A stretch of 64,000 nucleotides of DNA from Arabidopsis thaliana (Eukaryota > Streptophyta > Magnoliopsida > Brassicales > Brassicaceae). Shown piece by piece: positions 47,870-55,203 of this stretch. A program made the position numbers and the translations under genes. Numbering within the stretch: the stretch's first letter is position 1; each line of letters begins with the position of its first letter. The stretch covers positions 29,559,971 to 29,623,970 of the forward strand of contig NC_003070.9 in assembly GCF_000001735.4 (NCBI RefSeq), read 5' to 3'. Under the pieces are notes generated by a model, which searched no databases, had not been told where the DNA came from, and worked only from the letters and a program-made list of their open reading frames with translations.

Positions 47870-49471
47870 TCAGAGAACTACAACTTGGCATGAGCTAGAG
47901 AGTCTTGGAATGGTAAGGAGTTTCTTGAGCAAGGCAGATTCTTCATTTCCTCTGAAATCACCCAAGCGTAGTGTTAGTTTCTTGAGGATTGTTGACTTCT
48001 CCAGAAAGTAACTCATTAGTTTCAATTCTGTTTCCTTCTCTACCATTGGCTTTAGTATGTCAACAAACTCGAGAGCTGGTAGGTTGCACTGAGGTCCAGG
48101 TAAAATACTAATTGGCTCCTCCCCTGGAGTTTTACTAAATCCCTGCAAGTAAGACCAAGTGTACGAAACAAGTTGAGTATGTGATACTTTCAGTATTTGC
48201 ATTAAGAAGAGAGTAAGTTTATGGTTTCAGTAATAAATCCTCACCACAGAGAGAGATTTCAGTTTCGGCCGCTCTCCAGAAAGACTGGCAACATTTCCCA
48301 CCTGTAGTCGTCGAAGTCAGCATGCAAGGAAGATAAGTTACGGAATACGGGTAATCGTTCACATCTTGAGTAATTATAGATGACCTGCAAGAAAAACAGA
48401 AACAGAGCATAGGTAATAAACGCATTTGAGAGGTAATACAAGTTCTCACATGAAAAACTTAAGCATGAACATAAGAGAATCCAGCAGATGTTACCTCGAG
48501 GGTATGCGAAGAGATTTCCATTTCTTTGACACCAGAGATCCCGAGGAGAAAATTACGGATCATATTTCTCTTTGGTAGATCATTTGGGTCAAACTTCTGT
48601 TCGGAAGACAAGTTAAACATAATGTCGATGTCCATCTTAACAAGGGAAGCCGGATTCTTTATTATGAAACTTGCAGTTTCATGACAATAAAGCTTGAGAT
48701 CCTCAAGCCTGGGAGCATCTATTGCAACTACTTGCTCTTTAACCATATCCTCGTTACAGTGGCCAACAAGGGTGAAACTCAATAGAGACTGAGAGCACAC
48801 ACGTAAATAATCTACATTGTCACAAGCACTCCTCTTTATAGTTAAGCTTTCGAGAACTGGGCAGCCAGAGATGAGCATTTCGAAAGCCAAATCGTTGGCA
48901 AACTTAACCATATCTAGATACATAACTTTGACACAAGGTAAAGAAACAGACTCGGGATTACTGAAGGTCACGTCAGAGAGCTTCAATGATAACAAGCTCT
49001 CACATGTTTAAACTGTTTGAGGTATCTGCAATTCACATTCCAATTCACATTACTGTTTGAGGTAACATGAAGATGTTCAACTTTCCGCTTAATAACTGTG
49101 TTGATCCACCGGGTGACATTAGCATTATCAAGCTCAGTCCACTTCCATTCATACTTTAGCCTTAAATATTGGTAGTTTAACTTGAAATTTTGCAGGCGAG
49201 ATTCGCTGTTAAAACCCAGAAAGCTATCGACAAAGCTCACAAAAGCGTTGTACTCCGGGAAGTCACCATACCCCAAGTCCAAACCAGGTACACTTCTCCA
49301 TATATTTCCCCATGTACTTGATAACACACTAGTCTTAACCACATCTTTTGTGGGAAGATTCAAGAAAACCTGACATAGCAATGAATCTGGTAATTTTCTC
49401 AGCCAATCTAGATGACCTCTCCTATCATACGAGCGTGTGGAACTCACACGACTCTCTGCGTCTTCATCCAT
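47870..49471 (-). pseudogene. F-box/LRR/FBD gene, apparently degraded (first of four paralogues)
   Basis: Homologous exons on the minus strand are 49471-48495 (interrupted), 48384-48245 and 48142-47870. The F-box is good ([24 protein letters not shown]), LRRs follow, and the last exon encodes an FBD domain ending SSSCQVVVL. Three defects show against the paralogues. Near 49020 the upstream frame is out of phase, and in the frame of the rest the Tyr codon before TCESL is TAA. Near 48270 one base is missing (GGCCGAAACTGAAA), which gives a stop after LESGR. Removal of about 68 bp as an unusual intron could bypass the first two but not the third. It corresponds to At1g78730, which I recall as annotated protein-coding, so a shorter product cannot be excluded. 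Such proteins are substrate receptors of SCF ubiquitin ligases. Confidence 0.65.
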
Positions 49472-50143: not shown

Positions 50144-52553
50144 TCAGAGAACCACAACTTCGCAAGAGGTAGAAATTCTTGGAATGGCAAGGATTCTGGG
50201 AATGAGAGATTCTTTTCTCTTTCTGTAATCATCCAAGCATAGGGTTAGTTTCTTAAGGATTGTTGCTTTCTCAAGAAAGTAACCCACTAGCATCCTGATC
50301 TCCAGCAGCAACCCTTTCTTCAATGGCATTTTCATCTCAACATACTCGAGAGATGGTAAGAAATCTTGAGGTCCGGAAAACATACTACTTTCTTTGATCC
50401 CCAGTTCTTCAGTAGATTTCTGCAAGTACAATCAAGTGAACCAAAACAAGTTGCGTTTATGATATTTTCACGATTTGCATTATAACAAGGGTCAATGAAA
50501 AATCCTTACCAATATAAGCGATTTTAGATTTGGGCAGATCTCAAGAAAGGTTGGCAACATTTTAAACCTGTAGTCGTAGAACTCAACATGCAAGAAATAT
50601 AGATTACGGAATGGGGAGGTAGTGGTTCACATCTTAAGTAATCATAGATGATCTGCAAGAATAAAAAGAAATATGAGGAAAAAACTTATAAGATAAAGTT
50701 AAGCATTCAAATATCCAATTCAACATAGGTTACCTTAAGAATAATGGAAGAGATGGTCATATTTTTGACGCTAGAGATCCCAACAAGAAAATCACGAATC
50801 ATATTCCTCGAATCGAAGCCGGAAGACAAGTTAATATCAATATCCACCGCAACAAGGGAACCAGGATTTTTTATTATGAAACTTGAAGTCTGATGATCAC
50901 TGAGTTTCAGATACTCAAGCCTGGGAGCATCAATTACAATTGATAGATCTTTTTCAGCCAAAGGCTTTCGCACAGCATGAGTAAAGACAAGCTTGGGCGC
51001 AACATGAGTGAAGCTCAGTAGAGACTGAGAAGACACTTGTAAAACTTGGACGCGATCAAAGAATCTTATAGCTAAGGTTTCGAGAGCAGTGCAGCCTGAG
51101 ATGAGTGTTTCTAAATCCAAATGGTCGGCGAACTTAACTGCACCTAGCTTGAGAACTCTGAGAAAAGGTAAAGAAACAGACTTGACACTAGGCAGGGTAA
51201 CAGTAGATAGCTTTAAGGATACCAAGCTCTCACAAATGTAAATGGTTGAAGGTAGCTGAAAGTTATCAAACCCCCATTCCCATGAATAGTCAAAAAAATC
51301 TAAATCTTTAACCTTCAGCTGAATGACAGTATCGATCCACCGCTTGAGCAGATCAACTTCACGCTCAGAACTCCCATCACCAGGGTAGCTTAACTTAAAA
51401 TATTCTATCTGATAGTTCCTATTAAATCTCAGAAATCTATCCACAAATCTCACGTATTGGTAGTACATTTCGATATCCTCGCCACTTAAGTCTAATCCAG
51501 GTACCGTTTCCAGAGATTTTTCCATCTCTTAGAAAAAACACTAGTCCTAACCACATCCTTAGTGGGAAGATTCAGAAGTACCTTACATAGCTAGAGCTGT
51601 CAATTGGGCAGGACGCCCATGGGCTTGCCCAGTCCAAATGCATATGGGCGAACTATATTCCAGACAAAAAAAAATGGTCTAATTGGGCATATTATCAGTT
51701 TTGTCCATAGACAATATGGGCTTGACCGTATGGACAATGGGTTGCTCATGGACATGAATTGAGTCAATAGATATGTCTTCATTTTAATCATATTTTTATA
51801 ATTTTAATTACAATTACAACTAAATAATTTTCAAATTATATATTTTACATTATAAGTTTCTATTTTTATGAAAATTTTAAATTTTAATAAATTATTTCTT
51901 ATTAAATTATTTACGGTTTTGAAAGAAAATAGTATTCCACAATTTTTTGGAATACGCAAATTTTCGATTTTACGGTTTTGACGGGAAAAATACAATTCTC
52001 CGATTTTATAATTTTGACGGAAAAACGCAATTCTCTAATTTTACGGTTTTCACGGAAAAACGCAATTCTCTAATTTTACGGTTTTGGCGGGAAAACGCAA
52101 TTCCATAATTTTTCCGCCAAAATCGTGATTTTATTGTATTGGTAAGAAAAACACAATTTTACTGTTTTGTCGGAAAAATGCAAGTCTCCGATTTTTACAA
52201 TTTTTTTGGAAAAATAAAATTTTTAAATTTTTCTTTAAAATCATGATTTTTGATTTATCAATAATAACAATAATAAAATGGGCTGACCATGGACTTGCCC
52301 ATATGGACATGGTCTTTATTGGGCATGGACATTTTCGGACCATTGTCCATTATGGACCGTCCAACTTGGCCCATAAAAAAAACTGTCCGTACGTACACGC
52401 CCAATGGTCTTTGGACGGACCATTTGACAGCTCTATACATAGCAATGCTTCTGGCAAATCGCTTATCCAATCAACCCCAACCTCAACCTCTCTTTTTCTT
52501 TTCCTCGATCGTTTGGCTTTGGCAGGAACACGTTTCCTTCCAGCTTCACCCAT
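50144..52553 (-). pseudogene. F-box/LRR/FBD pseudogene split by a hAT-like element (second of four paralogues)
   Basis: Homologous coding parts on the minus strand are 52553-52436, then, beyond an 844-bp insertion, 51591-50734, followed by exons 50652-50510 and 50419-50144. The start MGEAGRKRVPAKAK and DWISDLPEALLC begin an F-box that is cut by the insertion; the other side continues [11 protein letters not shown]. Besides the insertion, one base is missing in TGGAAACGGTACC near 51508 compared with the three paralogues, and two extra bases lie in exon 2 near 50613 (CTACCTCCCCATTCC). The FBD exon (LPSLEYVEMKMP to TSCEVVVL) is open. The copy matches At1g78740 in position. It is almost certainly not able to make a full protein. 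Confidence 0.85.
51592..52435. mobile_element. Non-autonomous hAT-like element, 844 bp, in an F-box gene
   Basis: Both ends carry the inverted terminal sequence TAGAGCTGTCAA, and the element is flanked by a perfect 8-bp target duplication, TACATAGC, at 51584-51591 and 52436-52443. Eight-bp duplications and TAGRG-type ends are hallmarks of hAT transposons. Sub-terminal regions are dense in CCCAT/ATGGGC words on both strands, as expected for transposase binding sites. The centre (about 51970-52110) has four units of a 35-bp repeat with ACGGTTTTGACGGAAAAACG-like sequence. There is no transposase ORF, so it depends on a helper element. It interrupts the F-box codon after LLC. Confidence 0.9.
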
Positions 52554-53151: not shown

Positions 53152-54725
53152 TCAGAGAATGACAACTTGGCATGCGCTAGAGAGTCTTGGAATAGTATTG
53201 AGTTCTTTTAGGATGACAGATTCTTCTTTCTTTATGGAATCATCCAAGCATAGGGTCAGTTTCTTGAGGATTGTTGAATTCTCAAGTAAGTAACTCACTA
53301 GTTTCATCTCCATCGCCTCTCCTTTCAATGGCCTTTCTATCTTAACATACTCGAGAGACGATAGGAAACCCCGAGGTACAGACAAGATATTAATTCCCTC
53401 CTTCTCCCGATAATTAGCAGATCCCTGCAAGTACCATTTAACCAAGTGAAAGAGACATAAGTTCAATATATTATGCTATTATCACCATTTCCATCTTAAG
53501 ATAGAAAGTTCATGGTTCAGTAGTAGACAATCCTCACCACGACAAGAGATTTTAGATTAGGGCAGCTTTCAAGAAAGATTGGCAACATTTCCCACTTGTA
53601 GCCGTAGAAGTCAACACGCAAGGAAGATAGGTTACGGAATAAGGGTAGTGGCTCACATCTTGAGTAATCATAAATGACCTAGGACCACACAAAAAAAAAA
53701 GTATCAGTGTAAACTTATAATATAAAGTTAAGCATTCAAATAGCAAATTCAATATAGGTTACCTCAAGAGTACTTGAAGCGATGATCAAAGTTTTTATGC
53801 TAGAGATCCCGACGAGAAAATCACGAATCATATTTCTTTTATTCAGATCATTTGGATTGAACATCTTCTTGCAAATCAAGTTAAAGACAGTATCGATATC
53901 AGCTTCAACAAGGGAAGCCAGATCATTTAGTATAAAACTTGCAATACGATGATCACTGAGCCTCAGATACTTAAGCTTGGGGGCATCAATTGCGACTACT
54001 AGATCTTCATTCAACATTTCATCAGTGTCCGCAACATGAGTGAAGCTCAATAGTGACTGAGAACGCACACATGTAAATTCAAAATCATCACAGAAACTCC
54101 TGTTGATATTTAGGTTTTCTAGAACTGGGCACTGTGAGATGAGTGTTTCCAACGCCATATGGTCGGCAAACTTAACTATACTTAGATGGAGTTCTTTAAG
54201 AGAAGGTAAAGAAACAAACTTGGGACTAGCCAAGGATAGTCCATCGAGCGTTAAGTATACTAAGGTCTCACAAGTGTAAAGGGTTGGAGGCATCTCGAAC
54301 TCATAATTATCACATGAATCATCCAAAACACCGAGATATTTCACTTTCCGACTAACAACACTGTTGATCCACCGCCTGATCAGAGCCAGTTTAGGCTCAC
54401 CATACCCACTAGAATCGTACTCTAACCTAAAACTTTGTAAGCAAGATTGACTGTTGAAACCCATAAAGCTGTCGACAAAACGCAAGAATGTGTTGTGGTC
54501 ATACGAGAATGTGTTGCGGACATGGAAATCACAATAACTCAAGTTGAATCCAGGTACATACTTCCAGAGATTTCTCCATCTACTAGATAACACGCTACTC
54601 TTAACTACATCTTTCGTGGGAAGATAGAAGAGTACCTGACATAGCAATGTTTCTGGCAAGTTGCTTATCCAGTCAACTTCACGCGAGCCTTTGGCACGAA
54701 CACGTTTCTCACCGGCTCCATCCAT
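53152..54725 (-). CDS. F-box/FBD/LRR-repeat protein, 458 aa (third of four paralogues)
   Basis: Exons on the minus strand are 54725-53763, 53678-53538 and 53424-53152, in phase, giving 458 residues. Order of domains: a basic start ([13 protein letters not shown]), F-box ([36 protein letters not shown]), leucine-rich repeats with the [12 protein letters not shown] and LPSLKELHL signatures, and a C-terminal FBD domain ([40 protein letters not shown]). The F-box binds SKP1-like ASK proteins and the LRR/FBD part should choose the substrate, which is unknown. Length and position match At1g78750. It is one of two intact copies in the cluster. Confidence 0.92.
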
Positions 54726-55203
54726 GAACTATCAAATGGAAAAGAAATCCGTAAAAGCTTGTAATAGAGGAAGTATCGATCGACAGTTCCTATATTTTGT
54801 CTACCAGTTCCACATTCTTCGGCGGCCGTTCAGACTTCAGAGTTTCACTCTGTTCCTTATCCGGTTCGGATCAATTCGGTTTACTGATCCGATTAGTCTT
54901 TGGTATCATGATTAGTTAATACGACAGCATTTGTAATTTTAACTTGTAAGTCAAGTGATTGGGCTTGTAATAATGGGCTAATGGGGTTAGACCAAACCGT
55001 TTGGTCGTTTTTGTGCCTTGACAATCAAGGTCTCATATAAAATCTTCAAATTTACAAGTTCCTTCCCACTTTCTTTCAGAACATAACTTATAAATAATAA
55101 AATGGACAGAACATAGTCATTACAACCAACAAACACATGATTGTCTTCCAAGATACGAAACATGAAAATCATCACAAACGATGAAGAAAACATATACTTA
55201 ACA
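54726..55203. other. Intergenic region between F-box copies 3 and 4
   Basis: Promoter of copy 3 with motifs shared with the copy 2 promoter, then the 3' flank of copy 4. No other gene. Confidence 0.5.

Follow-up and report, generated by a model that had tools for sequence, protein, structure and literature searches.

The window analysed here, a 64-kb stretch at C1:29559971-29623970 of a 119.66-Mb genome searched in 7 contigs, contains a tandem cluster of F-box genes, one member of which is interrupted in exon 1 by an 844-bp element that splits its F-box codons (Table 1). This host locus is presumably AT1G78740, AT1G78730/50/60 being the names that we take to belong beside it. A literature search by the locus name AT1G78740 found no mention, and a search on hAT, non-autonomous, F-box and 8-bp duplication returned nothing on the host locus by title.

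Table 1. Features of the interrupted F-box gene and of the inserted element, in window coordinates.
Feature	Position	Strand	Basis or remark
F-box gene, likely start codon to insertion (MGEAGRK...DWISDLPEA)	52444..52553	-	joined reading frame
Rest of exon 1, LRR region PF24758	50734..51591	-	splice donor predicted from neighbouring paralogue
Frameshift 1, loss of one nucleotide after RWKNLWK	51505..51507	-	paralogue alignment
Exon 2	50510..50652	-	limits from comparison with paralogue
Frameshift 2, two extra nucleotides, exon 2	50613..50618	-	paralogue alignment
Exon 3, FBD domain PF08387, open to stop	50144..50419	-	Pfam match; paralogue comparison
Non-autonomous hAT element, 844 bp	51592..52435	+	boundaries set by inverted ends and duplications
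Left target site duplication, 8 bp, TACATAGC	51584..51591	.	perfect pair with right copy
Right target site duplication, 8 bp, TACATAGC	52436..52443	.	perfect pair with left copy
Terminal inverted repeat, left, TAGAGCTGTCAA	51592..51603	+	exact 12 bp; pairing to 51607 with one mismatch
Terminal inverted repeat, right	52424..52435	-	exact reverse complement of TAGAGCTGTCAA
Left subterminal region	51592..51763	+	11 other genome places match
Right subterminal region (element 687-844)	52278..52435	+	resembles one end of L029-L035, L037 (73-76%)
35-bp tandem array, 4.1 copies, 84% matches	51967..52112	+	repeat detection
E2F-like motif TTTTGGCGGGAAAA	52082..52095	+	sequence match to consensus TTSSCGSS

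Structure of the host gene and of the insertion

F-box, LRR and FBD regions stand in order in the host gene. Pfam matches both its LRR (PF24758) and its FBD (PF08387) regions; the piece with the split F-box, searched unjoined, gave no match. The F-box model PF00646 matches the neighbouring paralogue. An alignment of the joined flanks of the insertion with that gene covers 103 nt at 81.6%. This neighbouring F-box/LRR gene (window 53152-54728), from which the splice pattern was taken, has an open exon 1 of 330 aa. A second broken F-box paralogue also adjoins the host gene (window 48486-49294; C1:29608456-29609264); it is 60% identical over query 90-268 and lies in two frames with one stop and lacks the insertion.

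When the flanks are joined with one copy of the duplication, the F-box reads in one uninterrupted frame. The corresponding site is empty in all 11 paralogous loci compared (L042-L052, the best 11 after the host locus itself among 136 matched places), each of which aligns across the junction; some of these overlap a neighbouring paralogue, and for L043 the first alignment row is the host locus's own flank, the paralogous row standing at 81.6%. The proposal of the earlier note that the element entered sequence still reading as coding is thus borne out by the joined frame and the empty paralogous sites.

The other two lesions that the earlier note ascribed to the gene are also real when seen against the paralogues. 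The nucleotide missing at frameshift 1 is present in seven of the seven paralogous loci that cross the place (four of the 11 do not), and the two extra nucleotides of frameshift 2 are absent from nine of nine (two of the 11 do not cross), so that by alignment both are private to the host gene among the paralogues compared. Each piece of the exon stretches, read in its own frame, lacks a premature stop, and exon 1 stays open for 273 codons after frameshift 1. The gene retains 27 of the 29 residues invariant among 10 paralogues open over the stretch; leave-one-out values for the paralogues at such columns are 67-100%. Because it combines two private frameshifts with the lack of a premature stop, the host gene is a recently dead pseudogene in a family where such death is common. 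Against the 10 paralogues, crude NG86 estimates over 233 codons give dN of 0.37-0.63 and dS of 0.44-1.79, values too large and noisy to serve as a clock for the death of the gene.

The element itself, which with its duplications spans C1:29611554-29612413, has a GC content of 32% and inverted ends that pair over 16 nt at 94%. Short inverted ends of hAT elements fit the pattern YARNG, as does the start of this element (TAGAG...). Its 844 bp hold no trace of a transposase: tblastn with five transposase pieces gives no match better than E 0.30. The perfect 8-bp duplication, the inverted ends, the length and the missing transposase are therefore all as first described. A literature search for the TAGAGCTGTCAA end as a 12- or 11-letter string returned matches that, judged by title only, are unrelated.

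The element family, its relatives and its target sites

Searched against the genome, the element matches at least 68 places, many of them in the core repeat only, whereas its left 172 bp match 12 places including itself and its right 166 bp match 26. There are 48 exact occurrences of the 12-base end, compared with 11 for the pattern read backwards, and 25 of the 48 lie within the 29 distinct places fetched (L001-L040, several twice). Both ends and an 8-bp duplication, with no more than two mismatches allowed in each end and in the duplication, are present in 23 of these 29, host locus included; 19 of the duplications are perfect and four have one mismatch (L002, L013, L015, L034). Six places lack the full structure: L018 has lost its left end, L036 and L038 retain one end only, L027 and L028 have no ends, and L012 has both ends and no matching duplication. 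The last of these (C3:10980465-10982936; 2472 bp, exact ends on both sides) has one end like that of the 844-bp element and another like that of the transposase-bearing group, and may consist of the termini of two elements flanking other DNA; given its mixed ends, unmatched duplication and lack of a transposase match, it was rejected as a transposase-bearing relative, and a look at its inverted repeats added nothing further. The 3323-bp copy L015 likewise gave no transposase match.

The closest copy, L002, lies on another contig and differs by 22 substitutions in 831 sites (K2P 0.027), and a FastTree phylogeny groups it with the 844-bp element at a support of 0.959. In the alignment of eleven copies from which the distances were taken, the others stand at K2P 0.064 (L003), 0.080 (L004), 0.094 (L018), 0.098 (L007), 0.101 (L005), 0.106 (L009), 0.114 (L010), 0.119 (L011) and 0.231 (L013).

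Transposase sequence is found in related elements. The hAT domain PF05699 matches 112 places in the genome, and five elements of 2.4-3.3 kb (L029-L032, L035), with ends TAGAAGTGTCAA or TAGAACCGTCAA, each carry it between their ends. A 1558-bp element (L039) with ends TAGAGCTGTCAA (exact) and TTGACAGCTTTA (one mismatch) and a perfect duplication matches both PF14372 (E 8.9e-27) and PF05699 (E 1.4e-30). In a further element of 1282 bp (L016), with exact ends on both sides, tblastn detects a match to the N-terminal transposase region of L031, and Pfam finds none in the L016 piece; the BED match of L031 itself is below the Pfam cut-off (19.9 versus 20.6 bits). L016 and L039, the two elements with the identical end, share no more than about 34-47 bp of terminal sequence with the 844-bp element. 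The group that resembles it over the right 159 bp, at 73-76%, departs from the 12-base end by two mismatches; several of the right-subterminal matches, L029-L035 and L037, carry transposase. The hAT assignment put forward in the earlier note holds, because 8-bp duplications flank 23 of the 29 places, the siblings for which that note had proposed to search, and hAT transposase domains occur in relatives with the same or nearly the same ends (L039, L029-L032, L035). As for the autonomous relative with these termini that the note proposed to seek, the domains are there, but the transposase frames seen among the copies are split or contain stops. On sequence grounds, either one such transposase-domain relative or a relative since lost would have moved the 844-bp element.

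Two of the transposase-bearing elements, L030 (C1:6273523-6276128) and L031 (C1:5679267-5681873), are 99.65% identical, with 9 differences in 2606; each lies at a site of its own and is flanked by its own perfect 8-bp duplication. Their identity and distinct duplications indicate that the wider family moved recently, as a derivative: both carry the same reduced transposase, without the RNase-H-fold piece.

At positions 3-6 of the 23 duplications there is a preference for T, A, T and A, with 55 of 92 positions agreeing (nnTATAnn-like), as compared with a mean of 30.5 (sd 4.3) in flank controls, none of 20000 of which reaches 55; this control overstates the significance, because the score was defined only once these very duplications had been viewed column by column. 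The target TACATAGC of the 844-bp element fits three of the four core positions. The Ac-type preference is nTnnnnAn, and the same 23 duplications give no signal for it, with T at 2 or A at 7 in 16 of 46 positions against a control mean of 15.4 and none of the 23 having both.

Within the core tandem array lies the E2F-like motif of Table 1. The consensus TTSSCGSS is counted twice in the element (one site, both strands), where shuffles average 0.32, and from none (L003, L013, L014) to six times (L007, L010; three sites) in its siblings. The 14-mer TTTTGGCGGGAAAA occurs 1184 times in the genome and its letters read backwards 0 times. It is also present at C1:16986392-16987012 (L028), in an 81-bp tandem array of 7.7 copies that has none of these hAT ends. 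A motif of this kind in a transposon array is a known phenomenon, since a review, in the portion available, places ~85% of the E2F motifs of Brassicaceae within transposons, among them hAT MITEs (PMC12595863).

Age of the insertion and order of the lesions

Polarised by the simple majority of L003, L004, L005 and L018, the 22 differences to L002 divide into 14 private to the 844-bp element, seven private to L002 and one left unassigned, most outgroups having a third base at two sites. Changes from C to T or G to A make up 11 of the 14 and six of the seven, respectively. This excess would fit a methylated, silent element, and is weak evidence for one because the 11 changes are spread over CG (3), CHG (2) and CHH (6) contexts and because C to T is in any case the commonest change in plants. 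At a substitution rate of 7e-9 per site and year, the 14 private changes correspond to an upper age of ~2.4 My (1.3-4.0); the three changes of other kinds, assigned 40% of that rate by assumption, give 1.3 My (0.3-3.8), and the terminal branch of the element in the tree, 0.022, about 3.1 My. These ages are upper limits, because part of the change may predate the insertion, in the donor. From the private substitutions and this rate, the age of the insertion would not exceed about 1.3-4 My. The split between A. thaliana and A. lyrata dates to 5-13 My, beyond this upper age; to the extent that rate and split date hold, the insertion is probably younger than the split, and an empty site is therefore predicted in A. 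lyrata.

The earlier note had read youth from the perfect duplication and good termini, a conclusion that is only partly upheld here. The terminal branches of L003 (0.041), L004 (0.032) and L005 (0.045) are all longer than 0.022, yet their duplications are perfect, while that of L002 is shorter (0.011), yet its duplication has a mismatch. Perfection of the duplication is thus uninformative on youth and was discarded as a clock; the age limit from private substitutions is what speaks for a young insertion.

Two sequences of events would lead to the present gene. The chances are about even that a frameshift killed the gene and that the transposon later entered a pseudogene whose F-box was still in frame, an order in keeping with two private frameshifts, each disabling alone. 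Plant F-box pseudogenes with frameshifts are, moreover, described as common in the part of PMC3030570 available. Nothing counts directly against this order, the intact reading of the pieces and the 27 conserved residues pointing to a recent death by either route. Somewhat short of even odds attach to the insertion as the inactivating event, with the frameshifts following: the F-box is the SKP1-binding domain, an 844-bp insert in its codons would break it, and the upper age fits a recent pseudogene, but in a single genome the reverse order fits equally well. An old insertion, common to other Brassicaceae, is very improbable; perfect ends and duplication alone would allow several My, the probability of a perfect pair at 5 My being 0.57 at the rate used here, but the short distance to a copy on another contig argues against it. 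A chance arrangement of repeats can be dismissed outright, as the only place in the window with an exact 12-bp inverted pair 200-3000 bp apart and an exact 8-bp duplication is the one described, 20 dinucleotide shuffles of the window yield 0 such arrangements by the same scan, and the 96%-identical L002 has a duplication of its own (7/8 bases).

Interpretation and comparison with known systems

The reading preferred here, with a probability of roughly 95%, is that of a non-autonomous hAT element mobilised in trans. The element, which has TAGAGCTGTCAA ends, would have been moved by a hAT transposase supplied from another locus of the genome. It entered the first exon of a tandemly duplicated F-box/LRR/FBD gene, generating the 8-bp duplication and splitting the F-box codons. 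The element is in this sense real and cleanly preserved but ordinary, one more member of a non-autonomous hAT family, lodged in a pseudogene, and quite possibly already recorded in public annotations of transposons. What it offers is a clean, roughly datable insertion that hit a coding exon within a rapidly evolving cluster of genes, while the genome also contains its siblings and relatives that bear transposase. It would be of use as a marker, since scoring the site as empty or occupied in different accessions would put the three lesions of this dying gene in order. It is improbable, though conceivable, that the insertion is still polymorphic among A. thaliana accessions and silenced the gene, and that the family steers to TATA cores and scatters arrays of E2F sites; each landing would then break or mark a site and seed a cell-cycle-type regulatory motif.

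The 844-bp family resembles other plant non-autonomous hAT elements in its 8-bp duplication, short inverted ends, AT-richness, lack of a transposase and the presence of transposase-bearing relatives alongside. It differs from Ac in its targets, which are nnTATAnn-like. Henaff et al. (2014) reportedly found that Brassicaceae transposons amplify E2F sites. hAT elements are among the carriers in the available portion of the review cited above (PMC12595863), and the 844-bp element has TTTTGGCGGGAAAA in its core array, but keeps one putative site. Non-autonomous hAT families of the ATHATN type are named in the accessible text of PMC6027215 and PMC7385995. The latter describes two Brassica nigra hAT MITEs, BniHAT-1 and BniHAT-2, of 673 and 666 bp, with 8-bp duplications and 70-75% AT; BniHAT-2 ends in a 12-bp inverted repeat, and its homologue in A. 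thaliana goes by the name ATHATN1 (PMC7385995). The likeness of both to the 844-bp element is one of description, as given in that text. The host gene, for its part, matches the birth and death of plant F-box genes, a family known for pseudogenes in the section of PMC3030570 available: it is likewise a tandem copy broken by frameshifts, and what sets it apart is that the third of its lesions is a transposon lying within the F-box.
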